Assembly (NCBI GenBank): GCA_018660225.1
Contig: JABJKT010000011.1
Coordinates: forward strand, 1 to 42,496
DNA length: 42,496 nt
Direction of reading: 5' to 3'
DNA from: Kordiimonadaceae bacterium
GTDB lineage: Bacteria; Pseudomonadota; Alphaproteobacteria; Sphingomonadales; Emcibacteraceae
The notes below the pieces were generated by a model, which saw only the letters and a list, made by a program, of their open reading frames with translations, was not told the DNA's origin and searched no databases. The position numbers were made by a program, and so were the translations under genes. Below, piece by piece: positions 7,663 to 41,646 of the stretch. Numbering within the stretch: the stretch's first letter is position 1; the number at the start of each line of letters is the position of its first letter.

Positions 7663-8256
7663 ATGAACAAAATTAAATTTATGATTGGCACATTTATAAT
7701 GTTTGCCACAACAACCGTTTTTTCAAGCTCCGCACTAGCGGACTGGACACTAGACAGCGCAAATTCAAATATATCATATGGCACGGTAAAAAATGATGCC
7801 ATTGGAGAAAGTAATACCTTTAAAAACATATCCGGCACCATTTCAGATAACGGACATATTAATATTGATATCGATCTTTCATCTGTTGATACGCTGATAG
7901 AAGTTCGCGATGGTCGCATGCGGGACATTGTTTTCAAAGTCGCAGAAAATATAGCGGCCAAACTAAGCGGCGATATGAGTTTGCAGGACCATAATGATCA
8001 GGCCGTCGGTACGAGCCGCGTGATCGAAGCGACAATAGGACTTGAACTGGTCGGTGAAAAACTTGAGCATGATGTGATGCTCGTGGTCACCAGACTGGCT
8101 GAAAACAAAGTTATGGTTACGCCCCACGGTGTAATCTTTATTGATGCAGATGATTATGAACTTGCCGGTGCCATTGAAACATTACGGGAACTTGCCGGGC
8201 TTGATACCATTGCCACAGTTGTTCCCATGTCATTTTATTTAACATTTACCAAATAG
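7663..8256 (+). CDS. YceI-like periplasmic protein
   Basis: This protein has 197 residues with a signal peptide (cleavage likely SALA|DW, after residue 26). The mature part begins WTLDSANSNISYGTVKN, the usual opening of the YceI lipocalin-like fold that binds polyisoprenoid-like or other hydrophobic ligands in a beta-barrel. It ends in a beta-rich tail (VPMSFYLTFTK). CAGGG lies upstream of the ATG. It follows fadB by 67 bases with no clear terminator and precedes the DUF481 outer-membrane gene by 15 bases, so those two are probably co-transcribed. The ligand is unknown. Confidence 0.78.
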   Translation: MNKIKFMIGTFIMFATTTVFSSSALADWTLDSANSNISYGTVKNDAIGESNTFKNISGTISDNGHINIDIDLSSVDTLIEVRDGRMRDIVFKVAENIAAKLSGDMSLQDHNDQAVGTSRVIEATIGLELVGEKLEHDVMLVVTRLAENKVMVTPHGVIFIDADDYELAGAIETLRELAGLDTIATVVPMSFYLTFTK

Positions 8257-8271
8257 GACTAGAAAAGAATA

Positions 8272-9237
8272 ATGACTACTAAATATAGTAAAGCAGCCCT
8301 CACAGCGGGGCTGTTGTGCCTTCCGCTTTTTCCCATGACCGTTCTCGCTGAAGTTACGCCTGAACAATTCAATTTACTTTTAACTGCCGCTGAAAAAGAC
8401 GGCGGAAGAGATTTTGAAATTCTGGTTGATCTTCTAATCGCTGCAAATCCTGAAGATGAAGCCGATATTAGACAGACTGCCGCTCAGATTAGACCAGCGC
8501 CGGCACCTACGCCTGCTCCGGTCCAAACGTCACCATCAATTGCTGATGGCACTATTTTTTCTGATAGTTACGCAGAGAAACTTTCAGCTATGTTTTTACC
8601 CGGCTGGGAAAAAGAAGTTGAAGTTAACGCGCTTTACAGTACTGGTAACACAAGCCAAAAATCGTTTGGCACCGGGACTAAGTTTTTTAGAGAAGCTGGT
8701 CCATACCAACAAACCGTTACATCATATTTCGATTTAAACACGAGTGATGGCATCACCAATAAGCGAAGGTACGGTCTTGCTTTTAAGAATGATTACAGCA
8801 TCAATGAAATATCCTATGTCAGTGGCTTCGCAAGTTTTGAGGGCGATAGTTTTGGTGCCTTTAACAAACGACTTACGCTAAATGCTGGTTACGGTATCAG
8901 GATTTTTGATAATGATACATTTAAATTGAATATGGAAGCAGGCCCCGCACTGCTCATGACCAAGCCGCTTGCAACGGACGATTATGAAAGTGATCTTACT
9001 GCTTACGCAAGCAGCCTGTTTTCATGGGTTATTAATGACCGAAGTGAATTTGAAAATGAAACGAAAGTTTATGTAGGAAGTAGAGTGGTGATTGAAAATA
9101 AAACCGATTATAAACTACAGATCAGTGGCGCCCTTAGCGGTAAAATTTCCTTTGACGTGCTCTATAACCGTGATGCACCAATTGACCGTAAAAAAACCGA
9201 CACCATTACCCGTGTCGGCATTCTTTACGATTTCTAA
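8272..9237 (+). CDS. DUF481 outer-membrane beta-barrel protein
   Basis: This protein has 321 residues: a signal peptide (to about residue 26), a short helical region, a Pro/Ala linker at residues 74-88, then a beta-barrel of alternating strands typical of the DUF481/YdiY family. Family hallmarks are ALYSTGNTSQKSFGTGTKFF near the barrel start and a C-terminal aromatic beta-signal (VGILYDF). Members are outer-membrane proteins of unclear function, some induced by salt or acid. The helical plus Pro-rich N-terminal extension before the barrel may be a periplasmic spacer. It ends before a stem-loop at 9249-9273. Confidence 0.82.
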   Translation: MTTKYSKAALTAGLLCLPLFPMTVLAEVTPEQFNLLLTAAEKDGGRDFEILVDLLIAANPEDEADIRQTAAQIRPAPAPTPAPVQTSPSIADGTIFSDSYAEKLSAMFLPGWEKEVEVNALYSTGNTSQKSFGTGTKFFREAGPYQQTVTSYFDLNTSDGITNKRRYGLAFKNDYSINEISYVSGFASFEGDSFGAFNKRLTLNAGYGIRIFDNDTFKLNMEAGPALLMTKPLATDDYESDLTAYASSLFSWVINDRSEFENETKVYVGSRVVIENKTDYKLQISGALSGKISFDVLYNRDAPIDRKKTDTITRVGILYDF

Positions 9238-12668: not shown

Positions 12669-14474
12669 ATGGCTCCGCCACTGCTGACATTAACTAATAT
12701 GGGACTTAGATTTGGTCCTGATCCGCTTTTTAACGGGATGGAATTATCCATTGGCGAATATGACCGCATTTCTTTGGTGGGCAGAAACGGTGCTGGAAAA
12801 TCTACGCTGATGAAAATCATCCATGGCACCGTTGAAGCGGATAGCGGTGAACTTTTCGTAAAGCCGGGAACCCATGTCACCTATCTTGAACAAGACCCGG
12901 ATTTATCCGGTTTTAAAACCGCCCACGATTATGTAGTGAACGGCCTCGTACATGGTTCAGAAGATGACCATTTTCAGGTGGATATTATGCTGGCTGAAAT
13001 AGGTCTTGGTGCGGGGATGGAAACCGCCACTATGTCTGGCGGGGAACGTCGCCGTGCGGCCATCGCACGTGCACTCGTTAGTGATACAGATATTATGTTA
13101 CTTGATGAGCCAACCAACCATTTAGATATCGCGACCATCGAATGGTTAGAGCAAAAGTTAAAAAGTTGGCGCGGAGCACTGGTGATAATCAGTCATGACC
13201 GTGCATTTCTTAATAACCTGACCAACACAACCTTCTGGCTTGATCGCGGTAAAGTCCGCCGCCTTGATAAAGGGTTCGCTCATTTCGATGAATGGTCGAC
13301 AACTATTTTGGAACAAGAAAGAACTGAACGTGCTAAACTTGATAAGTTAATCGAAAAAGAAACTGACTGGTCCCATAAGGGCATAACTGCGCGGCGCAAA
13401 CGCAATATGGGACGAATGCGTAACCTTTGGGAACTTCGCCATCAACGCGAACAACAAATTTCAGAAGTCGGTTCTGCCCGCATTGCCGCCGATAGTGGTA
13501 AGGCATCAGGTAAAAAAGTAATTGAGGCTTTAAAAGTCAGTGTTGCTTTTGATGATAAGCCAATATTAAAAGATTTCTCCATTAAAATCCTACGCGGTGA
13601 TCGTGTTGGTATTATCGGACCAAATGGCGCCGGTAAAACAACACTTCTTAAAGCCTTAACCGGTAAGCTTATTCCCGACCAAGGACGAGTAAAACTTGGT
13701 ACTAACCTAATTCCAACTTTCCTAGATCAACACCGTAGCCTGATTAAAGATGACGACACGGTATGGGAAACCTTAAGTGATGGTGGTGACCATATTATGG
13801 TTCGTGGTCATTCAAAGCATATCATTTCTTATATCAAAGACTTTCTCTTTGATGCCTCGCAAGCTCATAGTCCTGTGAGCTCTCTTTCAGGCGGCGAAAA
13901 AAATCGCCTGCTTCTTGCAAAAACTCTCGCACATCCCACTAATTTGTTGATCCTTGATGAGCCTACAAATGATCTAGATATGGATACACTTGATTTACTA
14001 CAAGATGTTTTAAATGATTATGAGGGCACATTGCTACTCGTGAGCCATGACCGTGATTTCCTTGATCGTTTGGTAACATCCACTATCGCTATGGAAGGAA
14101 ATGGCGACGTGGTTGAATATCCCGGCGGTTATAGCGATTATGTAAGGCAGCGCAAGAACCGTACGGATGCCCCATCAAAGCAACAAGATAAGAAGCGTAA
14201 ATCAGAAAAAAGCCAAACAGGCGCAGAAAAAGAAGCCGTTAAAAAAATAAGCTTCAAACATCAGTTTTCTCTTGAAAATATACCCAAGGAAATAGAGAAA
14301 ATCGAAAAGAATATAAAAATGTTCGAAAAGAAGCTCGCCGAACCAGGCCTTTATAATAAAGACACCGCGCTTTTTAATAAATGTACCGCAGAACTAGAAA
14401 AGCTAACCGTTAAGCGAGAAGAAAAAGAAGAAGAATGGTTAGAGCTAGAAATGCTCCGCGAAGAAATAGAATAG
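12669..14474 (+). CDS. uup: ABC-F ATPase, Uup type
   Basis: This protein has about 601 residues and two ABC ATPase domains on one chain with no membrane segment, hence the ABC-F family acting on ribosomes. Domain 1 has Walker A GRNGAGKST, signature MSGGERRRAAIARAL and Walker B IMLLDEPTNHLD. Domain 2 has GPNGAGKTT, LSGGEKNRLLLAKTL and LLILDEPTNDLD. A charged coiled-coil (from about residue 500: IPKEIEKIEKNIKMFEKKL and on) closes the protein, as in Uup. The start at 12669 (MAPPLLTLTNMGLRFG) is chosen over 12600 because the longer version adds a hydrophobic run foreign to the family. The precise ABC-F subtype is a best guess. Confidence 0.88.
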   Translation: MAPPLLTLTNMGLRFGPDPLFNGMELSIGEYDRISLVGRNGAGKSTLMKIIHGTVEADSGELFVKPGTHVTYLEQDPDLSGFKTAHDYVVNGLVHGSEDDHFQVDIMLAEIGLGAGMETATMSGGERRRAAIARALVSDTDIMLLDEPTNHLDIATIEWLEQKLKSWRGALVIISHDRAFLNNLTNTTFWLDRGKVRRLDKGFAHFDEWSTTILEQERTERAKLDKLIEKETDWSHKGITARRKRNMGRMRNLWELRHQREQQISEVGSARIAADSGKASGKKVIEALKVSVAFDDKPILKDFSIKILRGDRVGIIGPNGAGKTTLLKALTGKLIPDQGRVKLGTNLIPTFLDQHRSLIKDDDTVWETLSDGGDHIMVRGHSKHIISYIKDFLFDASQAHSPVSSLSGGEKNRLLLAKTLAHPTNLLILDEPTNDLDMDTLDLLQDVLNDYEGTLLLVSHDRDFLDRLVTSTIAMEGNGDVVEYPGGYSDYVRQRKNRTDAPSKQQDKKRKSEKSQTGAEKEAVKKISFKHQFSLENIPKEIEKIEKNIKMFEKKLAEPGLYNKDTALFNKCTAELEKLTVKREEKEEEWLELEMLREEIE

Positions 14475-14536
14475 TTGCATATGTAACAAATATTCATTAT
14501 TATCATAACGAATCTACAAAATAAATAGGCCACCTT

Positions 14537-15253
14537 ATGTCAGAAGAAAATAACAAACACCAATCCTCCATTCCGCTTGATCATGAATATGTCGAACTGC
14601 CAATCCCGCACCGCTGGGAAATGAGCGATGATGAAATGATCAAAAAGTCACAAGAGTTTTATGAACTAATGAAAAAACGTCATACGGTCCGTGAATATTC
14701 AGAGCGCGCCGTACCGCGCGAAGTGATTGAAAACTGCATTAAAGCGGCTGGACTTGCCCCAAGTGGCGCCAATCACCAGCCATGGCATTTTGCGGTAATT
14801 GAAAACCCTGATCACAAGCAAAAAATCCGCGAGGCGGCCGAAGAAGAAGAAAAAACATTCTACGCCGGACGCGCCAGCGATGAATGGCTCGGCGCGCTTG
14901 AGCCAATTGGTACGAACGAAAGCAAACCTCATCTTACCACTGCCCCGTGGCTTATTGTTATATTTGCCCAGCGCACCAGTATTGACCGCAATGGCCGCAA
15001 ATTTAAAAATTATTACGTTAATGAAAGCGTTGGCATCGCCACAGGTTTTCTGATCACCGCTCTTCATAAAGCGGGGCTATCAACCCTTACCCATACGCCT
15101 AATCCGATGAAGTTCCTTAATGAGCTATGCAACCGTCCCGCGTCCGAAAAGGCGGAAATGATTTTAGTCGTTGGTCATCCTGATGAAAAAGCGACGGTAC
15201 CAGCCCACGCCAAATGGAAAAAACCAATCGACGAAATTATGTCCGTTTTTTAA
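14537..15253 (+). CDS. nitroreductase-fold flavoprotein, iodotyrosine-deiodinase-like
   Basis: This 238-residue FMN protein of the nitroreductase superfamily shows KKRHTVREYSERAVP and LAPSGANHQPWHFAVIEN for FMN contacts. Within the lid region the residues that bind the halotyrosine zwitterion in iodotyrosine deiodinase are all present at the right spacing: Glu105, Tyr109 and Lys130 (Glu to Tyr +4, Glu to Lys +25), in EEEEKTFYAGRASDEW and NESKPHLTTAPW. This makes reductive dehalogenation of halotyrosines the best guess, rather than generic nitroaromatic reduction. It lacks the N-terminal membrane anchor of animal enzymes. It lies 62 bases downstream of the uup-type gene and converges tightly on the POT gene, with only 8 bases between stops. 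Confidence 0.82.
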   Translation: MSEENNKHQSSIPLDHEYVELPIPHRWEMSDDEMIKKSQEFYELMKKRHTVREYSERAVPREVIENCIKAAGLAPSGANHQPWHFAVIENPDHKQKIREAAEEEEKTFYAGRASDEWLGALEPIGTNESKPHLTTAPWLIVIFAQRTSIDRNGRKFKNYYVNESVGIATGFLITALHKAGLSTLTHTPNPMKFLNELCNRPASEKAEMILVVGHPDEKATVPAHAKWKKPIDEIMSVF

Positions 15254-15261
15254 TGAACGGC

Positions 15262-16800
15262 TTAATGGACACCGTGCATTGCTTTTTTAAGCAGCGGCGT
15301 CATTAAAAATATAAAAATCCCGACACCAATACTGACCGTGCCGACAAAAGTATAAATATCCATTGTCGCAGCCACATCGAGCTGGGCGCTCGTCTCCCCG
15401 TGCTCTGCACCACCAGCAAGGGAGCTGATAATACCTGCCAGATAATTACCGACTGCCATAAAGAGGAACCACGTCCCCATAACCATACCAACGATTTTAG
15501 GCATACTCATTTTCGTAACAATGGATAGCCCAACCGGGCTTAAGAAAAGCTCCGCTAATGAGAGCGAAAGATAAAGAAACACCAGCCATAAGAAATTTTT
15601 CGACGTGCTGTCATCAAGCCCCATTCCGTAGGAAAAGATAATATAACCCGCCCCTATAATAATAAGTGAAAGACCGAATTTTACCGGCGTTGAGGGTTCC
15701 ATATTTCTCTTGCCAAGCGCGACCCACAGCCACGCCATAAGGGGCGCTAAAAGCACGACGAACAAAGTATTCATGGTTTGAACCTGAGATGCTTTTACCT
15801 GCCAGCCAAAAAGGTTTTTATCAAATTGCTGATCCGCAAGCAGTGTGAGGCTGGCACCCTGTTGTTCAAACAAGGCCCAAAATACCGCTTGGACAACAAT
15901 TAAAAAACAAACAACCATCAAACGTTCCCGTTCAACCTTGCTGCATTTTATAAAGCCATAAAGCACGATAATGCCGATCATAAAAAATCCTGAGAAGCCA
16001 AGAAGCATGCCGACCAACTCTTGATATTGCATCAATAACCAACTTGTAATCACCATTACTATTCCGCCCAGATATATGGCGTTTTCCTTATTAATCCCCC
16101 AAATAGCTTTTTCTTTCAAAAGGGCCGGGTTTCTTGGCTCGGCATGACCATCAAGCAGTTTTTGACCCCATAAAAAGACCAGCAAGCCACAAAACATGCC
16201 AATACCAGCGATTGAAAAGCCATAATTCCAGCCATAGGTTTCGCCGACATATCCAACAATAAGCATGGATACAAAGGCCCCGAAATTAAGACCCAGATAA
16301 AAAATGGTAAATCCACTATCCCGGCGCGGATCTTTGGGCCCGTAAAGCGCGCCAACGATGGTCGTTATATTTGCCTTTAAAAAACCAACGCCTGTGATGA
16401 TAAGTGCGAGCGCCAGAAAAAACACTTTTAAGTACAGTTCATCCCTTACCACCACGCCACCATCCATATAAGCGGCGCTTCCGTGAAACGCCATCAGACC
16501 ATGACCAAGTACCAGTAAAATAGCACCGTATGTAACAGCCTTTCGACTTCCCAAATAGCGATCAGATAAATACCCCCCAATAATCGGCATCATATAAACC
16601 AGTCCAACAAAGGCGCCATAAATCATGCTGGCTTTTTCAGCACCAAATAAATGATATTTGGTCAGGTAAAGAATAAGAAGCGCCCGCATCCCATAATAGG
16701 AAAAGCGTTCCCACATTTCAGTAAGAAAGCAGATATAAATTCCTGCAGGATGGCCCATAAAGTTTCTTTTTTGTGAGCCTTGATAAAGGTCTTCGGACAT
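15262..16800 (-). CDS. POT-family proton:peptide symporter (copy 1)
   Basis: This 512-residue major-facilitator protein of the proton-dependent oligopeptide transporter family carries the ExxERF signature in LTEMWERFSYYGMR (Glu28, Glu31, Arg32) on the first helix. The POT signature FTIFYLGLNFGAFVS is in the middle, and family text such as FLKANITTIVGALYGPKDPRR is present. It imports di- and tripeptides with protons. It lies one base downstream of a second POT gene with the same N-terminal (GSQKRNFMGHP) and C-terminal (MHGVH) ends, so the two arose by tandem duplication. Confidence 0.92.
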   Translation of the reverse strand: MSEDLYQGSQKRNFMGHPAGIYICFLTEMWERFSYYGMRALLILYLTKYHLFGAEKASMIYGAFVGLVYMMPIIGGYLSDRYLGSRKAVTYGAILLVLGHGLMAFHGSAAYMDGGVVVRDELYLKVFFLALALIITGVGFLKANITTIVGALYGPKDPRRDSGFTIFYLGLNFGAFVSMLIVGYVGETYGWNYGFSIAGIGMFCGLLVFLWGQKLLDGHAEPRNPALLKEKAIWGINKENAIYLGGIVMVITSWLLMQYQELVGMLLGFSGFFMIGIIVLYGFIKCSKVERERLMVVCFLIVVQAVFWALFEQQGASLTLLADQQFDKNLFGWQVKASQVQTMNTLFVVLLAPLMAWLWVALGKRNMEPSTPVKFGLSLIIIGAGYIIFSYGMGLDDSTSKNFLWLVFLYLSLSLAELFLSPVGLSIVTKMSMPKIVGMVMGTWFLFMAVGNYLAGIISSLAGGAEHGETSAQLDVAATMDIYTFVGTVSIGVGIFIFLMTPLLKKAMHGVH

Positions 16801-16801
16801 A

Positions 16802-18349
16802 TTAATGGACCCCGTGCATTCCTTTTTTAAGCAGCGGCGTTAGTACAAGAATGAGAACGCCAACCCCGGCACTGACAAGGCCGATCATGGTATAAAGTTC
16901 CATGGTTGCCGAAAGATCAAGGGTGCCGCTTGCCGCTCCTACCTCGTTACTGCCCATCATTGAGCTGATCCAGCCCGCGACATTATTACCAAGCGCGGTA
17001 AAGAGGAACCAAGTTCCCATCATCATCCCGACAATTTTCGGCACGCTAAGCTTTGTGACCATAGATAGACCAACCGGGCTTAAGAATAATTCGGCGAGCG
17101 TCAACATGAAATAAATATATATCAGCCATAAAAAGCTTTTCGATGTGCTGTCATCAAGCGTCATGCTCCAAGAAAAAACGATGTACCCCGCACCAATGAT
17201 CAGCATTGCATAGCCAAATTTAGCCGGCGTTGATGGTTCCCAGTTCTTACGCGACAGCGTCAACCAAAGCCAGGCCATTACCGGTGCAAGGGTAATGATA
17301 AAGAGCGCATTCATGGTTTGAACCTGTGAAGCAAGAATATTCATTCCAAGGAAGTTCAGATCATATTGCTGATCAGCGAGCAGCGTTAAACTGGCGGCCT
17401 GTTGCTCAAAGAGTGCCCAGAAAACAGATTGAATAGCGATCAAAAAAAGCGCAACAAAAAGCCGTTCCCGGTCCACTTTTTCACATTGCGAATATGCATA
17501 ATAAAGGATAAAGCCGATCATAAAGAGCCCAGCTATACCTACCGCCTGAATAACCATGGCATCATATTGCATCATCACCCAGCTTACCCCGACAAGACCA
17601 AGACCGAATAAATAAATAGTGTTTTCTTTGTTAAGGCCAATGGGCGATTTTTCTTTGAGAATGGCCGGATTTGATGGCTCAGCGCGACCACCAAGGAACT
17701 TTTGACCCCATAGAAAAACCATCAAACCAAAAAACATTCCAATTCCAGCAATGGAAAATCCATAATTCCAGCCATAGGTTTCACCAACATAACCGACAAC
17801 AATCATCGAAATAAATGCACCAAGATTAATGCCCATATAAAAAATAGAAAACCCACCATCTCGGCGCGGGTCACTGGGGCCATAAAGCGCCCCGACTACC
17901 GATGAAATATTGGCCTTGAGAAATCCCGTTCCACCAATGATCAGCGCAAGCGCGAGGAAGAAAATATTGATATAAAATTCGTCGCGTACAACGATATCCC
18001 CGCTCATATAAGCGGCAGGACCATGAACGGCCATCAAGCCATGCCCGGCCACCAGCAATATGGCGCCGTAAGTAACAGCCTTGCGGCTTCCCAGATAACG
18101 ATCCGCCATATAACCACCAATTATCGGCATCATATAAACCATCCCGGCGTAAGCACCGTAAATCATACTGGCCTTTTCAACGCCGAAAAGATGATATTTT
18201 GTCAGATACAGTATGAGAATAGTACGCATACCATAATAAGAAAAGCGCTCCCACATTTCAGTGAAAAAGAGTACTGAAAGTCCAATAGGATGGCCCATAA
18301 AGTTTCTTTTTTGCGAGCCCGCATAAATCTCGTCTGAGTAGTCCGACAT
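16802..18349 (-). CDS. POT-family proton:peptide symporter (copy 2)
   Basis: This is a 515-residue paralogue of the gene just downstream. ExxERF is in FTEMWERFSYYGMR (Glu31, Glu34, Arg35), and the POT signature is FSIFYMGINLGAFIS. It is the first gene of the two-gene operon, with AGGGAATAGG before the ATG. Divergence between copies is scattered over loops and helices, suggesting an old duplication kept by selection, perhaps for different peptide sets. It is divergent from an M14 metallopeptidase across 120 bases, which suggests a shared theme of peptide use. Confidence 0.92.
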   Translation of the reverse strand: MSDYSDEIYAGSQKRNFMGHPIGLSVLFFTEMWERFSYYGMRTILILYLTKYHLFGVEKASMIYGAYAGMVYMMPIIGGYMADRYLGSRKAVTYGAILLVAGHGLMAVHGPAAYMSGDIVVRDEFYINIFFLALALIIGGTGFLKANISSVVGALYGPSDPRRDGGFSIFYMGINLGAFISMIVVGYVGETYGWNYGFSIAGIGMFFGLMVFLWGQKFLGGRAEPSNPAILKEKSPIGLNKENTIYLFGLGLVGVSWVMMQYDAMVIQAVGIAGLFMIGFILYYAYSQCEKVDRERLFVALFLIAIQSVFWALFEQQAASLTLLADQQYDLNFLGMNILASQVQTMNALFIITLAPVMAWLWLTLSRKNWEPSTPAKFGYAMLIIGAGYIVFSWSMTLDDSTSKSFLWLIYIYFMLTLAELFLSPVGLSMVTKLSVPKIVGMMMGTWFLFTALGNNVAGWISSMMGSNEVGAASGTLDLSATMELYTMIGLVSAGVGVLILVLTPLLKKGMHGVH

Positions 18350-27671: not shown

Positions 27672-28661
27672 TTAATCTTCGGGCACCTCGAACTTGACAA
27701 TTTTCTGATCGATGCGGCCGAAGATTGTTTTGCCGCTTTCATCAAACATGTCAATTTCTACCCGGTCACCGAAGCTCATGAAGGGGGTTGAGGGTTTGCC
27801 GTCCTTTATGGTCTCCAAGCATCTTACTTCGGCGATGCAGCATGAGCCATCCTCTGATCCTTCGTTTGATACGGTTCCGGAGCCGATAACGGTGCCAGCC
27901 TCCAGCGCCCTTGATTTTGCGGCGTGCTCCACTAGTTGGCAGAAATCAAAAGTCATATCAACGCCGGCATTAGGCGCGCCGAATGTCTCGCCGTTATAAA
28001 TTGCATGAAGCGGAAGATGAAGTTTCCTGCCATCCCACGCATCACCCAATTCATCAGGCGTAACAAAAACGGGCGCAAAGGCGGTTTGCGGTTTTGATTG
28101 GTAAAAACCGAACTGTTTAGCAAGCTCGGCCGGGATCAGGTTACGCAAAGAGACATCATTTAAAATAGAAAGCAGTTTAATATGCTTGCCTGCACCAGCA
28201 GCCGTTGTTCCGGGCGGCACATCATCGGTAATCACAGCAACTTCAGCTTCAAAATCAATGCCCCACTCTTCCGAGCCAGCAAGGACATCATCATGAGGGC
28301 CGATAAAAGCATCGGACGCGCCCATATAAACCAGCGGATCGGTCCAGAAACTTGGCGGCAGTTCAGCACCGCGTGCTTTACGGACAAGCTCAACATGGGT
28401 CACATAAGCACTGCCATCAACCCAGTGATAAGAGCGCGGAAGTGGTGCGTCGCACTGATAAGGATCAAACGCTTCACCGGAAATAGCACCGCTTTCAAGG
28501 TCATTATAAAGCGAGATCAGTTTAGGCTCACACTCAGCCCAGTTATCAAGCGCTGCTTGCATAGTTGGTGCGACGGCCTGCGCCGATACATATTTGGAAA
28601 GATCTTTCGCGACAACAACAAGTTTGCCGTCCCTGCCGTGCTTTAAAGATGCCAGTTTCAT
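27672..28661 (-). CDS. fumarylacetoacetate hydrolase (FAH) family protein
   Basis: This 329-residue FAH-fold hydrolase has metal-binding acids visible as Glu138 and Glu140 in GIDFEAEVAVITDDV and Asp169 in SILNDVSLRN. The N-terminus (MKLASLKHGRDGKLVVVAKD) and LPRSYHWVDGSAYVTHVEL resemble the bacterial fumarylacetoacetase of the homogentisate (tyrosine/phenylalanine) pathway, which splits fumarylacetoacetate to fumarate and acetoacetate. HppD and HmgA are not in the window, so this assignment rests on similarity to that subgroup. It is divergent from a MarR regulator. Confidence 0.82.
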   Translation of the reverse strand: MKLASLKHGRDGKLVVVAKDLSKYVSAQAVAPTMQAALDNWAECEPKLISLYNDLESGAISGEAFDPYQCDAPLPRSYHWVDGSAYVTHVELVRKARGAELPPSFWTDPLVYMGASDAFIGPHDDVLAGSEEWGIDFEAEVAVITDDVPPGTTAAGAGKHIKLLSILNDVSLRNLIPAELAKQFGFYQSKPQTAFAPVFVTPDELGDAWDGRKLHLPLHAIYNGETFGAPNAGVDMTFDFCQLVEHAAKSRALEAGTVIGSGTVSNEGSEDGSCCIAEVRCLETIKDGKPSTPFMSFGDRVEIDMFDESGKTIFGRIDQKIVKFEVPED

Positions 28662-28692
28662 TTTATTGCTCTTTCTCTTAATTTATATTCTC

Positions 28693-28721
28693 TTGACGAA
28701 ATATGGTTATAACTCTATAAT
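28693..28721 (+). promoter_or_regulatory. sigma-70 promoter of marR-type gene
   Basis: TTGACG (28693-28698) and TATAAT (28716-28721) are separated by exactly 17 bases, close to the ideal promoter. The 8-bp palindrome GTTATAAC (28706-28713) lies in the spacer. It reads toward the MarR gene at 28769. Confidence 0.75.
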
Positions 28722-28738
28722 AGTTTCATTCGTAACTA
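28721..28738. promoter_or_regulatory. putative MarR operator
   Basis: TAGTT (28721-28725) and AACTA (28734-28738) form an inverted repeat with an 8-base spacer. It overlaps the end of the -10 box and covers the expected transcription start of the marR-type gene. This position suits autorepression and possibly control of the divergent FAH gene. Confidence 0.5.
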
Positions 28739-28768
28739 ATTGCAAGACTAAACGGGAAGAAAAAATAA

Positions 28769-29212
28769 ATGTCAAAATCAGACCTGCTGCTTGAAGAATT
28801 TCTTCCCTACCGACTGTCCTATCTTTCTAATATCATGGGACAAGGGCTTGCCCAACTTTATACCAACAAATTTGGCATTGCCCATACGGAGTGGCGGGTT
28901 ATGGCAGTACTTGGTATTTCATCAGGCCTGTCGGCGGCCTTAGTGGCTGACAAAACGGCAATGGATAAAGTTGCAGTGAGCAGAGCCATTAATAATATGA
29001 TTGATAGCGGTCTTATCAGCCGCAGCTTTGCCGATGATGACAAGCGCCGCTCCGAGCTGAGCCTGTCGGCACTGGGGAAGCAAACTTACGAAAAAATAGT
29101 GCCGCTAGTACAGGCTTATGAAAAAGATGTGCTAGGTGCCCTTAGTGATAAGGAACAAAAAGAACTTGATGCTCTTCTCTCTAAGCTAACGGATTATGCC
29201 AAAGAACTATAA
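28769..29212 (+). CDS. MarR family transcriptional regulator
   Basis: This 147-residue protein has the MarR winged helix-turn-helix: FGIAHTEWRVMAVLGISSG, then the recognition helix in DKVAVSRAINNMIDSGLISR, and the wing with the DDKRRSELSLSALG motif. It probably acts as a dimer. Being divergent from the FAH gene with a palindrome over its own promoter, it most likely represses itself and the FAH gene until an aromatic catabolite binds. GGGAAG lies upstream of the ATG. It converges on hemN with 3 bases between the stops. Confidence 0.88.
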   Translation: MSKSDLLLEEFLPYRLSYLSNIMGQGLAQLYTNKFGIAHTEWRVMAVLGISSGLSAALVADKTAMDKVAVSRAINNMIDSGLISRSFADDDKRRSELSLSALGKQTYEKIVPLVQAYEKDVLGALSDKEQKELDALLSKLTDYAKEL

Positions 29213-35431: not shown

Positions 35432-36199
35432 TTATTCGATCATTGTTTCAATGAGCTTTGTTAATACCGGGCGGAGCTTATTGGCTCGCTCTTCATGGAA
35501 TTTTGCTTTGGGCGCTTCATCCATATAGGTGATTTGTGAAATTTCGAGCTGTATGGCATCGATGTTATTTGCGGGGTCACCATAGTTGCGGGTGATATAA
35601 CCGCCTTTAAAGCGGCCGTTCAGAGCCGTGCTATAATCTGATTTTTTGACTATGTCATCCAGTTTTTCCACTAGCCTCTGATCTGCTGAAATGCCGTTGC
35701 CTGTGCCCAGATTAAGATCGGGTAGCCGTCCTTCAAATAGATGCGGTACTTGGCTTTTTATGGAATGGGCGTCCCACAGCCGTACGTAGCCGTGCTTTTT
35801 TTTTAATCGTTTTATATCGGCCTTTAACTGATCATGGTAGGGGCGCCAATATTTTTCGGCGCGCGATGCACTATCAGGCACTGAACCATCTTGATAAAGT
35901 GCTTCATTTTCAAATGTATGCGTTGGACAAAGGGTTGTTTCATTTTGACCGGGATAGAGACTTTCACCTTCTAATCCCCTGTTCAGATCAACTACATAAC
36001 GACTATATTTTGCGCCGATAGCCGTTACGTCCATTTTAATCATAAAATTATAAAGCCGGTCAATATACCAGTCGGTATCGACCATACTGAGTGCCGCGTC
36101 GGTCATATTCTCCTTTATAACATCGGGAATTTCAAGACCAATATGCGGCATACTGATGATGAGTGGACTTTCGCCTTTCTTATACTGAAAAGCGTTCAT
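35432..36199 (-). CDS. hutG: N-formylglutamate deformylase
   Basis: This protein of about 255 residues belongs to the N-formylglutamate amidohydrolase family. It releases formate and glutamate in the last step of this histidine route. Family blocks are PLIISMPHIGLEIPD (metal His19), DTDWYIDRLY, ATGAKYSRYVVDLNR-like AIGAKYSRYVVDLNRG, and RLWDAHSIKSQVPHLFEGRL. The ATG at 36199 overlaps the hutH stop as TGATG; a GTG at 36202 is also in frame. It is the last gene of hutUHG. Confidence 0.9.
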   Translation of the reverse strand: MNAFQYKKGESPLIISMPHIGLEIPDVIKENMTDAALSMVDTDWYIDRLYNFMIKMDVTAIGAKYSRYVVDLNRGLEGESLYPGQNETTLCPTHTFENEALYQDGSVPDSASRAEKYWRPYHDQLKADIKRLKKKHGYVRLWDAHSIKSQVPHLFEGRLPDLNLGTGNGISADQRLVEKLDDIVKKSDYSTALNGRFKGGYITRNYGDPANNIDAIQLEISQITYMDEAPKAKFHEERANKLRPVLTKLIETMIE

Positions 36200-37728
36200 C
36201 ACATATTCCCGCTTGGTAATATTTTCATGACTTGCTCGGAGAAATCACCCGCTAATACCAACTGGGTCGCCCGGTCAATATCCGGGGCAAAAAAGCGGTC
36301 GACGGTATAATGGGGGACATTCTCTCTAATCAGCGTGTGATAAGGATCTAGTTTTTTGGATGTTTTAAGAGGGGCTCTAAAATCAATACCCTGCGTCGCC
36401 GCTAGCAGTTCAATGGCAATCACCGTTGCACTGTTAAAGCACATTGCGGTCAAGCGCCGCGCGCCGTAAGTCGCCATGCTGACATGATCTTCCTGATTGG
36501 CAGAAGTGGGAATGCTATCAACGCTAGACGGGTGAGCGCGAGATTTATTTTCAGAAACAAGTGCCGCCGCCGACACCTGAGCAATCATAAAGCCTGAATT
36601 AACGCCGCTATTTTTAACGAGAAACGCCGGAAGGTCGCTCATTTTCGGATCAACCATAATCGATAAGCGCCGTTCAGAAATAGACGCTATTTCACAGATT
36701 GCCAGTGCAAGTATATCAGCAGCAAAAGCCACCGGTTCAGCGTGGAAATTACCGCCCGAGATTACATCGCCATTATCGGTGAAAATTAGCGGATTATCGG
36801 TAACCGCATTGGCTTCTATCAACAGCGTTCTCGCCGCGTTATTTATAATATCAAGCACCGCCCCCATCACCTGCGGCTGACACCTGAGCGAATAAGGATC
36901 CTGAACCTTTTCGCAGTCATGATGAGCCTTATTAATTTCACTGCCCTGCAAGAGCTCAAGATAAAGCGGCGCAACCGCTATCTGACCCGGCTGACCACGG
37001 GCAATATGGATGCGTTTATCAAAAGGGGCAACACTACCCATCAATGCATCGATGCTCATGGAACCCGCAACAACGCCAGCGGCGAATATATCTTCCGCCT
37101 GAAATAAACCTTTAAGGGCCAGCGCCGTGGAAACCTGAGTGCCGTTTAAAAAAGCCAGCCCTTCTTTGGAATTTAGAGTAATCGGCTTAAGTCCGGCTTT
37201 TTGCAGTGCTTCTTTTGCCGGCATTTTTTCGCCGTTCAGTCGTGCGAATCCTTCCCCCATTAAGGCGGCGGTCATATGGGCAAGTGGCGCAAGATCACCG
37301 GACGCCCCAACCGATCCTTTTTTCGGGATATCAGCAATAATCCCGGAATTTACAAATTCAATAAACGCTTCAATGGTTGATACGCGAATACCGGAATGAC
37401 CCTGTGCAAGGCTTGAAATTTTAAGAACATAAACCATCCTCACTACATCATCTTTAAGGGGCCTGCCAACACCTGTACTATGGGAAAGGACGAGGTTGGT
37501 CTGTAGCAGCGATAACTGATCATCAGGAATTGACGTTTGGGCAAGCAGGCCAAAGCCGGTGTTAATGCCGTAGACGGTCTGTCCTTCCTCAATGATAGTA
37601 TCAACAACTTTTCTCGAAGCACGAACATCATCCCAGGCATGGTCTGCGAGAGAAATTTTCGCCTCATTTCGGTAAATGCCCCGTAAATCAGCCAAGGTCA
37701 TTTGGCCAGGATTAATTATATATGTCAT
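36199..37728 (-). CDS. hutH: histidine ammonia-lyase
   Basis: This 509-residue enzyme converts L-histidine to trans-urocanate plus ammonia. The autocatalytic MIO cofactor triad Ala142-Ser143-Gly144 is intact in [16 protein letters not shown], at the same numbering as the Pseudomonas enzyme. INTGFGLLA and the NPLIF and [10 protein letters not shown] blocks are also family hallmarks. The start at 37728 ([10 protein letters not shown]) has GGAGG 7 bases upstream; a TTG at 37734 overlaps the hutU stop. It follows hutU by two bases. Confidence 0.96.
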
Positions 37729-37730
37729 GA

Positions 37731-39401
37731 TCAATCCTCCATCATCGGTAGGTTAAGGCCTTGTTCACGGGCGCACTGCTTGGCAATCTCATAACCAGCA
37801 TCGGCGTGACGCATAACGCCGGTCGCCGGATCATTCCAAAGAACCCGGGCAATTTTTTCGGCCGCCTCGTCACTTCCGTCGCAAAGCATGACAATACCGC
37901 TATGCTGGGAAAAACCCATCCCAACACCTCCGCCATGATGAAGCGATACCCATGTGGCACCACTCGCCGTATTAAGTAGCGCATTAAGCAGCGGCCAGTC
38001 GGACACGGCGTCCGAGCCATCCATCATGCTTTCCGTTTCACGGTTGGGACTAGCGACTGAGCCACTATCCAGATGATCACGTCCGATTACCACCGGTGCT
38101 TTAAGCTCGCCGTTTTTGACCATTTCATTAAAAGCAAGACCGAGCCGGTGACGATCACCAAGGCCAACCCAGCAAATACGCGCCGGAAGTCCTTGGAACT
38201 GAATGCGTTCGCGGGCCATATCAAGCCAGTTATGAAGATGCGGATTGTCCGGAATAAGCTCTTTAACTTTTTGATCGGTTTTATATATATCTTCCGGGTC
38301 ACCGCTTAGCGCAACCCAGCGGAACGGGCCGATGCCACGGCAAAATAGCGGGCGCACATAAGCCGGAACAAAGCCCGGAAAATCAAAAGCATTTTCAACA
38401 CCGTCATCAAAAGCAACCTGACGAATATTATTACCGTAATCAAAAGTGGGGATGCCCATTTTTTCATATTCAAGCATCGCCCTCACGTGAACGGACATGG
38501 ATTTAGTGGCGGCGCGCTCAACTTCTTTTGGTGCGCTTTCAATTTTGCTTTCCCATTGATCAACTGTCCAGCCAGCGGGTAAATAGCCATTGATCGGATC
38601 ATGGGCCGATGTCTGGTCCGTTACCGCGTCCGGGCGAATGCCGCGCTTTAACATTTCGGGGATTACCTCTGCGCAGTTACCCAGCAGGCCAACGGAGATG
38701 GCTTTACCCGCTGCCGTTGCTTGCGTGATCATTTCCATTGCCTGATCAAGTGTTTCAGCGCGCTTATCAATATAGCCCGTGCGAAGTCGGAAATCGATCC
38801 GGTCACTGCGGCATTCTACCGCGAGCATACTTGCTCCGGCCATGGTCGCGGCAAGCGGCTGTGCACCGCCCATACCGCCAAGGCCACCGGTTAAAATCCA
38901 TTTTCCGGTAAGATCACCGTCATAATGCTGACGGCCCATTTCAACGAATGTTTCATAGGTGCCCTGAACGATGCCCTGACTGCCAATATAAATCCAGCTG
39001 CCGGCGGTCATCTGCCCGTACATCATCAGACCTTTTTTATCGAGCTCGTTAAAATGATCCCAAGTGGCCCAGTGCGGCACCAAATTTGAATTTGCAATAA
39101 GTACACGCGGTGCATTTTCATGGGTGCGAAACACGCCAACCGGCTTACCCGACTGCACAAGTAGTGTTTCATCCGCTTCAAGATTTTTCAGGCTTTCAAC
39201 AATTTTATCAAAACATTCCCAGTTACGGGCCGCCTTGCCAATGCCACCGTAAACCACCAGGTCTTCCGGACGTTCGGCCACATCCGGGTCAAGATTATTC
39301 ATCAACATCCGCAGCGGCGCTTCTGTCGCCCAGCTTTTTGCATTAAGTTCAGTACCTGTCGGTGCTTTAATGATGCGATTATTCGTTTTTAAGTCTGACA
39401 T
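37731..39401 (-). CDS. hutU: urocanate hydratase
   Basis: This 556-residue NAD-dependent urocanase converts urocanate to imidazolonepropionate. Cys410, the active-site cysteine, lies in [17 protein letters not shown] at the same residue number as in the well-studied Pseudomonas enzyme. [39 protein letters not shown] and [15 protein letters not shown] are diagnostic. The start at 39401 ([10 protein letters not shown]) is chosen over 39512 because the longer frame runs through the HutC-type operator at 39412-39421 and into the hutC coding region. It is the first gene of hutUHG. Confidence 0.96.
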
Positions 39402-39411
39402 TTCTTTATCC

Positions 39412-39421
39412 TGTATATACA
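39412..39421. promoter_or_regulatory. HutC-type operator upstream of hutU
   Basis: TGTATATACA is a perfect 10-bp palindrome, 10 bases before the hutU ATG, in the 40-base gap between hutC and hutU. It matches two other copies in this hut cluster in sequence and placement. A GntR/HutC-family repressor typically binds such a site, so hutUHG probably has its own urocanate-inducible promoter. Confidence 0.65.
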
Positions 39422-39441
39422 AGTCTTGCTTTATTCTGGAT

Positions 39442-40161
39442 TTATTCCGGTTTAAAGAGCCCCGAAAGCTCATAACGTGATCCCGGATGATATAATTTCG
39501 CGGTTGAGGCAACCCTTTCCTTAGCCCATGTGCGGCGCTCGATCAGCAGACAGGCTTCGTTATCAGCCATATCAAGAATGCTGCTTATAGCACCTGTCGC
39601 CATGATCGCCCGCACCACATGTTCGACCTTTTGCAGCGGTGCCATTTTAATCAGATATTCGTAAGGTGTGTTTTTGGTAAAGTCCTGTTTCCCGTAACCC
39701 GGCACGACCAACTCATTGACTAAACGGTCTTCAAGCTGGATTGGAATGCCCTGTTCTTTGTGGATGATCTGTGAGTGAATAAGCTCATCACCACTTTCAA
39801 TATTCATGATGGCGGCGATCTTCTCATTGGCCTTAACCGGTTCACATATAAGCACTTCTGCGCCATAGTCATGGTGACGAGCGCGAATTTCATCGGCAAT
39901 ATTATAAATTTCAAGCGGGTTGCTTTTTGCCTTAAGCTCCGCAACAAAAGTACCGACCCCGGCGACCCGAATAAGATATCCCTCATCGGTCAGTTCGCGA
40001 AGCGCACGGTTGGTCGTCATGCGCGATACGGAAAATTCCTTCACCAACTCATTTTCAGACGGCACCCGGGTTGAGGCCATCCATTCACCGCTATCAATCC
40101 GCTCTAAGATATGATTTTTAATTTTACGGTATAAAGGTTCTGATTTTAATTCAACGGTCAT
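39442..40161 (-). CDS. hutC: histidine utilization repressor HutC (GntR family)
   Basis: This 239-residue protein has an N-terminal GntR winged helix ([20 protein letters not shown], then [17 protein letters not shown]) and a C-terminal UTRA ligand-binding domain (about 90-235). HutC binds operators in hut promoters and is released by urocanate. Its own promoter carries a TGTATAGACA site at 40202-40211. AGGAG lies before the ATG. It sits between hutF and hutU on the same strand. Confidence 0.93.
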
Positions 40162-40198
40162 ATGCCGCTCCTGTTATCAAAATTATGCTCAAATATGT

Positions 40199-40214
40199 AC
40201 TTGTATAGACAACT
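40199..40214. promoter_or_regulatory. HutC-type operator upstream of hutC
   Basis: ACTTGTATAGACAACT contains TGTATAGACA at 40202-40211. The 16 bases are the exact reverse complement of the site at 41601-41616. It lies 37 bases before the hutC ATG and touches the hutF stop codon, with a CATAAT -10-like box on its downstream side. This fits autoregulation of hutC. Confidence 0.68.
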
Positions 40215-41581
40215 TAGTCAAGTAGTTTTTTTAGGGCCATCATTACCCCCGAAAAGTCCGCCAAAATTTGCTGCTCATCTGCATGTTTATAATCCCTTAT
40301 GAGCCAATCACCGGCCACCATCACATGTTTGATCGGGTTCTGGTTGCCGCTGAATATAAACCGGTCAATGATACTATTATCCGGCGTGCCAACCAGCAAC
40401 GGCGAGCGTTCATCAAGCACGATTATGTCGGCTCTTTTGCCCACATCGATCATGCCATTATTAAAGCCGCTTGCCTTTGCGCCACCCCTAAGGGTCAAAT
40501 TATATAAATTGCTACCCGTATGAATTTCATCATCGCTAACCGCAATATTTCGCTGCCGGCTCTCAAGCCGCTGACCATATTCAAGCAGGCGCAGCTCTTC
40601 AATGACACTAACCGAAATATGACTGTCGGACCCAATGGCAATATCGCCACCCTGATCAAGATAATTTTTAAGCGGGAATAGTCCGTCCCCCAAATTGGCT
40701 TCTGTGGTTGGGCATAAACCGGCCACCGCACCAGAGCGGGCGATCATATTTATTTCATCATCATTAAGGTGAGTTGCGTGTATCAAGCACCAGCGCTCAT
40801 TCACATCTGCACGGTCATAAAGCCACTCAACGGGCCGCTTGCCTGACCAACTTACACAGTCATTAACTTCTTGAATTTGTTCAGAAATATGAATGTGAAC
40901 TGGACCCGATACAGGATTATTATTCAGACATTCCTTTAGCGCATATTCCGGCACCGCCCGCAGGCTATGAAAAGCCATTCCCAAATGCTGATTGCTATTG
41001 TGTGATATTGAAGAAGATAATTTTTCCAGTAGTGCCTGGTAATCATCCAGCGAATGACCAAAGCGTTGTTGGCGCGCGTTAAGCGGTGCGCCGCCAAAAC
41101 CGGACGCCATGTAAAGAACCGGCAAATGGCAAAGTCCGATCCTGGTTTTGTCAGCCGCGGCCATAATCGAATGGGACATGGTATCATTACGGCCTTGATC
41201 ATGATGAAGATAATGAAATTCTGCGACACTAGCGTAACCCGCTTTTAACATTTCTAGATAAAGCTGGGATGCGATCGCTTCCAAATCCACGGCGGAAATT
41301 TTACCGGCAAAGCGGTACATAATATCGCGCCAGGTCCAGAAGCTGTCACTAGCCGATGTTGAATATTCGGCAAGCCCGGCCATGGCGCGCTGAAACGCGT
41401 GACTGTGGACATTATTCATTGCCGGAAGAGCATATCCCGACATTTTCTCACTATCATCAACTTTGGCGCCATCATAATCAGGTGTTACTTTTAAGATTTC
41501 ACCTGCGTCATCCAGTTCAAGACAGACATTTTTCGCCCATCCTGATGGTAAAAGTGCGTTTTCGAATATAATTCTTTTCAT
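40214..41581 (-). CDS. hutF: formimidoylglutamate deiminase
   Basis: This 455-residue amidohydrolase converts N-formimino-L-glutamate to N-formyl-L-glutamate plus ammonia. The metal HxH is His59 and His61 in MNNVHSHAFQRAMAG, further ligands are in VHIHISEQ and LIHATHL, and the metal Asp in AIGSDSHISVS. The product feeds HutG, so the pair HutF/HutG replaces the one-step HutG formiminoglutamase seen in enterics. The start at 41581 (MKRIIFENALL) is chosen because the in-frame ATG at 41629 lies upstream of the operator and overlaps the promoter. Confidence 0.92.
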   Translation of the reverse strand: MKRIIFENALLPSGWAKNVCLELDDAGEILKVTPDYDGAKVDDSEKMSGYALPAMNNVHSHAFQRAMAGLAEYSTSASDSFWTWRDIMYRFAGKISAVDLEAIASQLYLEMLKAGYASVAEFHYLHHDQGRNDTMSHSIMAAADKTRIGLCHLPVLYMASGFGGAPLNARQQRFGHSLDDYQALLEKLSSSISHNSNQHLGMAFHSLRAVPEYALKECLNNNPVSGPVHIHISEQIQEVNDCVSWSGKRPVEWLYDRADVNERWCLIHATHLNDDEINMIARSGAVAGLCPTTEANLGDGLFPLKNYLDQGGDIAIGSDSHISVSVIEELRLLEYGQRLESRQRNIAVSDDEIHTGSNLYNLTLRGGAKASGFNNGMIDVGKRADIIVLDERSPLLVGTPDNSIIDRFIFSGNQNPIKHVMVAGDWLIRDYKHADEQQILADFSGVMMALKKLLD

Positions 41582-41600
41582 TTCGGTCAATTCTGGATAT

Positions 41601-41616
41601 AGTTGTCTATACAAGT
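41601..41616. promoter_or_regulatory. HutC-type operator between hutF and hutI
   Basis: AGTTGTCTATACAAGT, core TGTCTATACA at 41604-41613, lies in the 87-base gap between the divergent hutF and hutI starts. It is identical in reverse complement to the hutC operator. It lies directly downstream of the predicted hutF -10 box, where a bound repressor would block hutF, and probably hutI too. Confidence 0.68.
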
Positions 41617-41618
41617 TA

Positions 41619-41646
41619 ACTTTATGCAAAAAATAATATTTGTCAA
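41619..41646 (-). promoter_or_regulatory. hutF: predicted hutF promoter
   Basis: On the minus strand a perfect TTGACA (41646-41641) is followed after 16 bases by TAAAGT (41624-41619), a 4/6 match to the -10 consensus. The HutC-type operator follows immediately. The hutF ATG is about 38 bases downstream of the -10 box. Confidence 0.45.

Follow-up and report, generated by a model that had tools for sequence, protein, structure and literature searches.

The open reading frame at positions 14537-15253 (+) of the window, the whole 42,496-nucleotide stretch of DNA analysed here, is intact, starts with ATG and encodes a 238-residue protein that is very probably a bacterial iodotyrosine deiodinase (IYD). 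Judged from its sequence and its modelled fold, the product would be an FMN-using member of the nitroreductase superfamily, taking iodide, and probably bromide or chloride, off 3-halotyrosines to yield tyrosine. The first-pass annotation had proposed such an identity beyond a generic nitroreductase label, and we retain it because of the sequence matches, the residue set, the phylogeny and the predicted fold, all of which support it. The protein is less unusual than that annotation implied: bacterial IYDs are established, with crystal structures (5ko7, 5ko8, 5krd and 6pz0), so that knowledge of the family is unchanged and the window gene is a further example. What is gained is that a vague "nitroreductase" label can be replaced in Alphaproteobacteria by a testable enzyme name; among the matches listed, a literature search returned no study on IYD in this class. 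Pfam assigns the protein to the Nitroreductase family (PF00881, 80.7 bits for a gathering cut-off of 23.5), while none of the nine NCBIfam models listed reaches its cut-off. In a passage of one paper, Iyd is named as one of the nitroreductase superfamily's specialised subgroups (PMC6017928). Set against the four orthologues L031, L033, L034 and L086 from its group, the gene gives pN values of 0.08-0.14 against pS values of 0.67-0.77, the synonymous sites being near saturation. A scan of positions 14300-15500 reports four promoter-like sites (2.2 in shuffled sequences, sd 1.6) and no terminator-like one (2.1, sd 1.4), which is uninformative.

A phmmer search against the PDB sequences reports IYDs ahead of every other nitroreductase: the Haliscomenobacter hydrossis IYD 5ko7 comes first (E 2.7e-63), followed by the human and mouse enzymes (E 6.9e-53 to 8.1e-51) and by the IYD 6pz0 (E 5.5e-28), with nitroreductases starting at E 5.6e-13. 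A profile search with 41 rows (the window protein and 40 of the best 80 listed loci, out of 577 relatives in all) strengthens the first hit to E 1.7e-84, and six IYD sequences lead the list. AlphaFold2 returned, from the same 41-row alignment, a monomer with a mean pLDDT of 88.3 and a pTM of 0.85, for which the top 25 listed Foldseek matches are all IYD entries. An overlay on a known IYD had been suggested as a check by the first-pass annotation, as had a phylogeny. With VIA-align, the predicted model, built without FMN, fits the iodotyrosine-bound H. hydrossis chain 5ko8_B with 1.3 Å over 217 residues (Z 26.1) and adopts the IYD fold, lid region included. The chain 4ttc_A follows closely (Z 25.5), the top 12 entries are all IYDs (Z of at least 20.9), and the BluB structure 2isj comes thereafter (Z 17.3). 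Ligand-bound chains outscore ligand-free ones, at least partly because the latter are shorter (202 versus 218 residues in H. hydrossis).

The catalytic lid of IYDs involves a Glu, a Tyr and a Lys, and the claim that the window protein possesses this triad with spacings of +4 and +25 holds: Glu105 (14849-14851, +), Tyr109 (14861-14863, +) and Lys130 (14924-14926, +) match the corresponding residues of the H. hydrossis, human and mouse IYDs in HMMER alignments. Along with Trp117 and Thr126, they are invariant in all 139 rows of an alignment comprising the window protein, three PDB rows and 135 loci picked by similarity to the window protein (two window copies, L001 and L111, a fragment, L015, and a locus without match, L112, having been excluded before counting). 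Since these rows are related and at least seven genomes are present twice, the invariance reflects constraint and does not amount to independent observations. The lid loop at residues 127-129 is variable. A broader 78-row alignment sets 45 IYD-clade rows against 33 controls, made up of 26 other nitroreductase-family rows and seven BluB rows. The aligned E, Y, W, T and K residues are found in all 45 IYD-clade rows; the exact triad spacing occurs in 41 of them versus one control, and the full E-x3-Y-x7-W-x8-T-x3-K signature in 41 versus none. The first two lid positions also align with Glu and Tyr in some non-IYD nitroreductases, and one control, L170, bears all three residues at the exact spacing, which indicates that membership of the IYD clade is no prerequisite for the bare triad to arise. 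The triad by itself is thus suggestive at the sequence level; the wider signature and the tree identify the family.

Thr187 (15095-15097, +), a threonine in 138 of the 139 rows, pairs with human Thr239, the site at which the mutant chain of 5yak departs from the wild type, and we take it to be the flavin-tuning residue. The segment R48-H49-T50-V51-R52 (14678-14692, +) corresponds to an Arg motif that presumably binds the FMN phosphate; R48 and R52 are present in 139/139 rows, and the second Arg is replaced by His in the window protein and in 113 rows in total, the other 26 having retained Arg. By alignment offset, His49 (codon 14681-14683) occupies the position of human R101, and a passage of another paper lists R101W of human IYD as a hypothyroidism mutation (PMC3930498). 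Asn79 (codon 14771-14773) is shared by 136 rows, the three PDB IYD rows having His; Asn is common at this position outside IYDs too, and His is found in the Deinococcus, Streptomyces, Nonomuraea and Persicobacter rows. Against the IYD reading stand these two departures from the human and H. hydrossis enzymes (His for Arg at 49, Asn for His at 79), the variable lid loop with Glu128 in place of the Trp of their TNWIK and TDWHK motifs, the exact triad in the control L170, a tyrosine breakdown that is incompletely recovered, and neighbouring genes that offer no halogen-related context.

Two phylogenies place the window protein among IYDs. The trees draw on 34 hand-chosen loci out of 135 IYD loci and on seven of the nine matches of a plasmid search (H7 and H8 were not taken); the nitroreductase loci L161, L178 (in fact an IYD), L183 and L184 were not included. 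In the quick tree of 78 rows, which came with long-branch warnings on several outgroup rows, the protein belongs to a 45-row clade with the human, mouse and H. hydrossis IYDs (SH-aLRT 99). In the careful tree of 51 rows, built after dropping 14 nitroreductase rows that were long or divergent and 13 IYD rows that were redundant, the 32 IYD rows, human and H. hydrossis included, form one clade (99/97) present in 99% of 200 bootstrap trees and separate from BluB and the other nitroreductases. Within it, the window protein joins other Emcibacteraceae-like rows (96/85), themselves part of a wider group of 11 rows with Rhodobacterales and Rhizobiales sequences (96/95); deeper branching is weakly supported and the two trees disagree on it. 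The BluB rows form a separate clade in both trees, and five rows labelled NTR (L163, L168, L169, L172 and L187) group with them in the quick one. As a separate observation, the IYD of L087, on a contig labelled as a Blastopirellula (Planctomycetota) MAG, nests among Alphaproteobacteria in both trees, reflecting either mis-binning or transfer.

Could the protein share the IYD ancestry yet have lost halotyrosine dehalogenation, acting as a general nitroreductase or flavin reductase with FMN? The Pfam label, Asn79 as in many non-IYD nitroreductases, and the lid residues recurring in such proteins, up to the complete triad of L170, would fit. We nonetheless deem this unlikely, as the window protein lies within the IYD clade, has the complete E-Y-W-T-K set together with T187, and finds its best model match in a substrate-bound IYD.

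IYDs act through a reduced FMN, with stacking of the phenolate, a clamping lid and stepwise transfer of single electrons. Along these lines, we infer that the window protein binds FMN, closes its lid and turns over halotyrosine. By analogy, the phenolate of the halotyrosine would stack on the flavin, and the lid would become ordered upon binding, with E105, Y109 and K130 clamping the ammonium and carboxylate groups of the substrate; the reduced FMN, with T187 near its N5, would then donate single electrons in turn and the halide would depart. The closest characterized counterpart is the H. hydrossis IYD (5ko7, 5ko8, 5krd), which is 51% identical over 198 columns and shares the lid triad and a THTP motif, but differs at residues 49, 79 and 128 (Arg, His and Trp versus His, Asn and Glu in the window protein) and stems from another phylum. 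The human and mouse IYD, also called DEHAL1 (4ttb, 4ttc, 3gb5, 3gfd), is 47% identical over 213 columns, with the same lid triad and the Thr187/Thr239 correspondence, and differs at R101/H49; the vertebrate enzyme is membrane-anchored. The IYD 6pz0, which we take to be that of Thermotoga neapolitana, shares the fold (1.9 Å over 183 residues) but is only 34% identical, its 192-residue chain having 11 fewer residues across the aligned span. The most likely role of the window enzyme, though a guess, is the salvage or clearance of halotyrosines from the surroundings, supplying the tyrosine pool. The link to a marine organism exposed to halogenated amino acids, drawn in the first-pass annotation, is likewise conjectural.

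The genomic surroundings of the gene are shared within the genus. Upstream, 62 bases separate the IYD start from a co-oriented ABC-F (Uup-like) gene. Each genome being counted once, with the repeated loci L031, L032, L033, L034 and L086 merged with L004, L007, L003, L012 and L006, respectively, a Uup-like ORF lies directly upstream of IYD in ten of the 13 genomes of the genus, own included. It is found ~4.2 kb upstream in L086, and none was seen within the stretches examined around IYD in L002 and L015, both of the genus, or in L013, L014, L035 and L036 (L014 and L036 look like the same genome). An operon formed by the ABC-F and IYD genes was considered and rejected, the gene order being local synteny. 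Downstream, a tandem pair of POT peptide symporter genes, ~70% alike (15262-18349, -), is convergent with IYD. POT genes adjoin IYD in 19 of 138 loci, that is, in 13/13 genomes of the genus after merging, and in none of the other loci (flanks of 1.5-6 kb). Clustering of neighbours across loci is rough, because in GC-rich genomes the greedy choice of ORFs picks up antisense ones. We read the upstream ABC-F gene and the downstream POT pair as genus-level synteny, a thin context that says little about function.

The POT pair does bear on another reading, in which an IYD-fold dehalogenase has as its physiological substrate another ortho-halophenol or a small halotyrosine-containing peptide, and not free halotyrosine. 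Two peptide transporters downstream of the gene in this genus would suit a peptide substrate, and 5krd is, by its title, the H. hydrossis IYD with bound 2-iodophenol. The invariant lid residues, thought to hold the amino acid ends, argue for free halotyrosine, and the transporter neighbourhood is confined to loci of the window's genus within those flanks; we therefore regard this second reading as very unlikely. A BluB-type 5,6-dimethylbenzimidazole synthase, hinted at by a weak match to the NCBIfam model TIGR02476, was rejected as scarcely credible: the score of 55.9 bits falls below the cut-off of 150, the BluB rows branch apart with the lid set missing in 7/7 of them, and the BluB 2isj, despite a shared superfamily fold, deviates by 3.4 Å over 203 residues at 17% identity.

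Returning to the IYD reading, the tyrosine pathway that its product would feed is only partly recovered. HPD was found in the own genome, and it occurs in 54 of 60 genomes, with or without IYD, and is thus uninformative. The HmgA model matches 15 of the 60 genomes at E 1e-20, two of them above its cut-off, and finds no HmgA in the window's genome with the threshold set to E 0.01; by these searches, tyrosine breakdown in this genome is incomplete. Two further regions of the window may be mentioned here in their own right. A gene of the FAA-hydrolase family (27672-28661), 12 kb from IYD, is divergent from a MarR-type regulator (region 27672-29212) and is possibly an aromatic breakdown gene. Positions 35432-41629 hold a histidine-use cluster, in which HutG scores above its cut-off and the HutH, HutU, HutC and HutF labels were given by eye.

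At E 1e-30, the IYD gene is present in 13/13 genomes of the genus, own included (split across two contigs in G005), in two of 19 genomes of other genera in the family and in 15 of 28 from the rest of the order, for a total of 30 out of 60. A sample of the class at E 1e-40 reports a match in 38 of 385 genomes, own included. Among the best 80 of 577 relatives, many carry Rhodobacterales or Rhizobiales names, and the closest ones named to family are Emcibacteraceae MAGs. Distant relatives (43-57% identity) are encoded by replicons of Paraburkholderia, Aureibacter, Persicobacter, Deinococcus, Streptomyces and Nonomuraea.

Phages also appear to carry an IYD gene. Two related IMG/VR phage contigs, L140 and L141, each encode an intact IYD at positions 7929-8669, 63% identical to the window protein and with the lid set preserved. 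Rescanning IMG/VR with the 41-row alignment returned just the same two contigs, and a collection of named phages gave no IYD match at E 1e-10. We advance, as a tentative possibility only, that the ability to dehalogenate halotyrosine is widespread among Alphaproteobacteria, partly mobile and carried even by phages, such that infection could alter how a host uses or detoxifies halogenated tyrosine. A phage-borne IYD, if working, would be an unusual cargo gene. The two contigs are 91% identical over 4890 bases around IYD, and their IYD genes differ by ten changes (pS 0.025, pN 0.012), too few to read selection. In L140, one flank of the gene carries terminase, portal, head protease and capsid genes, and the other carries ParB/DNA methyltransferase and primase genes; L141 shows the same layout, as judged from its ORFs. 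The large terminase has its best named-phage relatives in Rhodobacter phages, all such relatives being less than 60% identical. The IYD gene occupies a slot bounded by the small terminase gene and the ParB/DNA-methyltransferase gene. Of the 80 top-ranking IMG/VR relatives of the large terminase, 48 show both slot neighbours, with IYD solely in L192, which is the L140 contig; phage carriage thus looks real but rare. The cargo of the other phages consists of mixed small ORFs that share no theme by eye, and the slot of these 48 loci (L192-L271) varies from ~0.25 to 3.5 kb.
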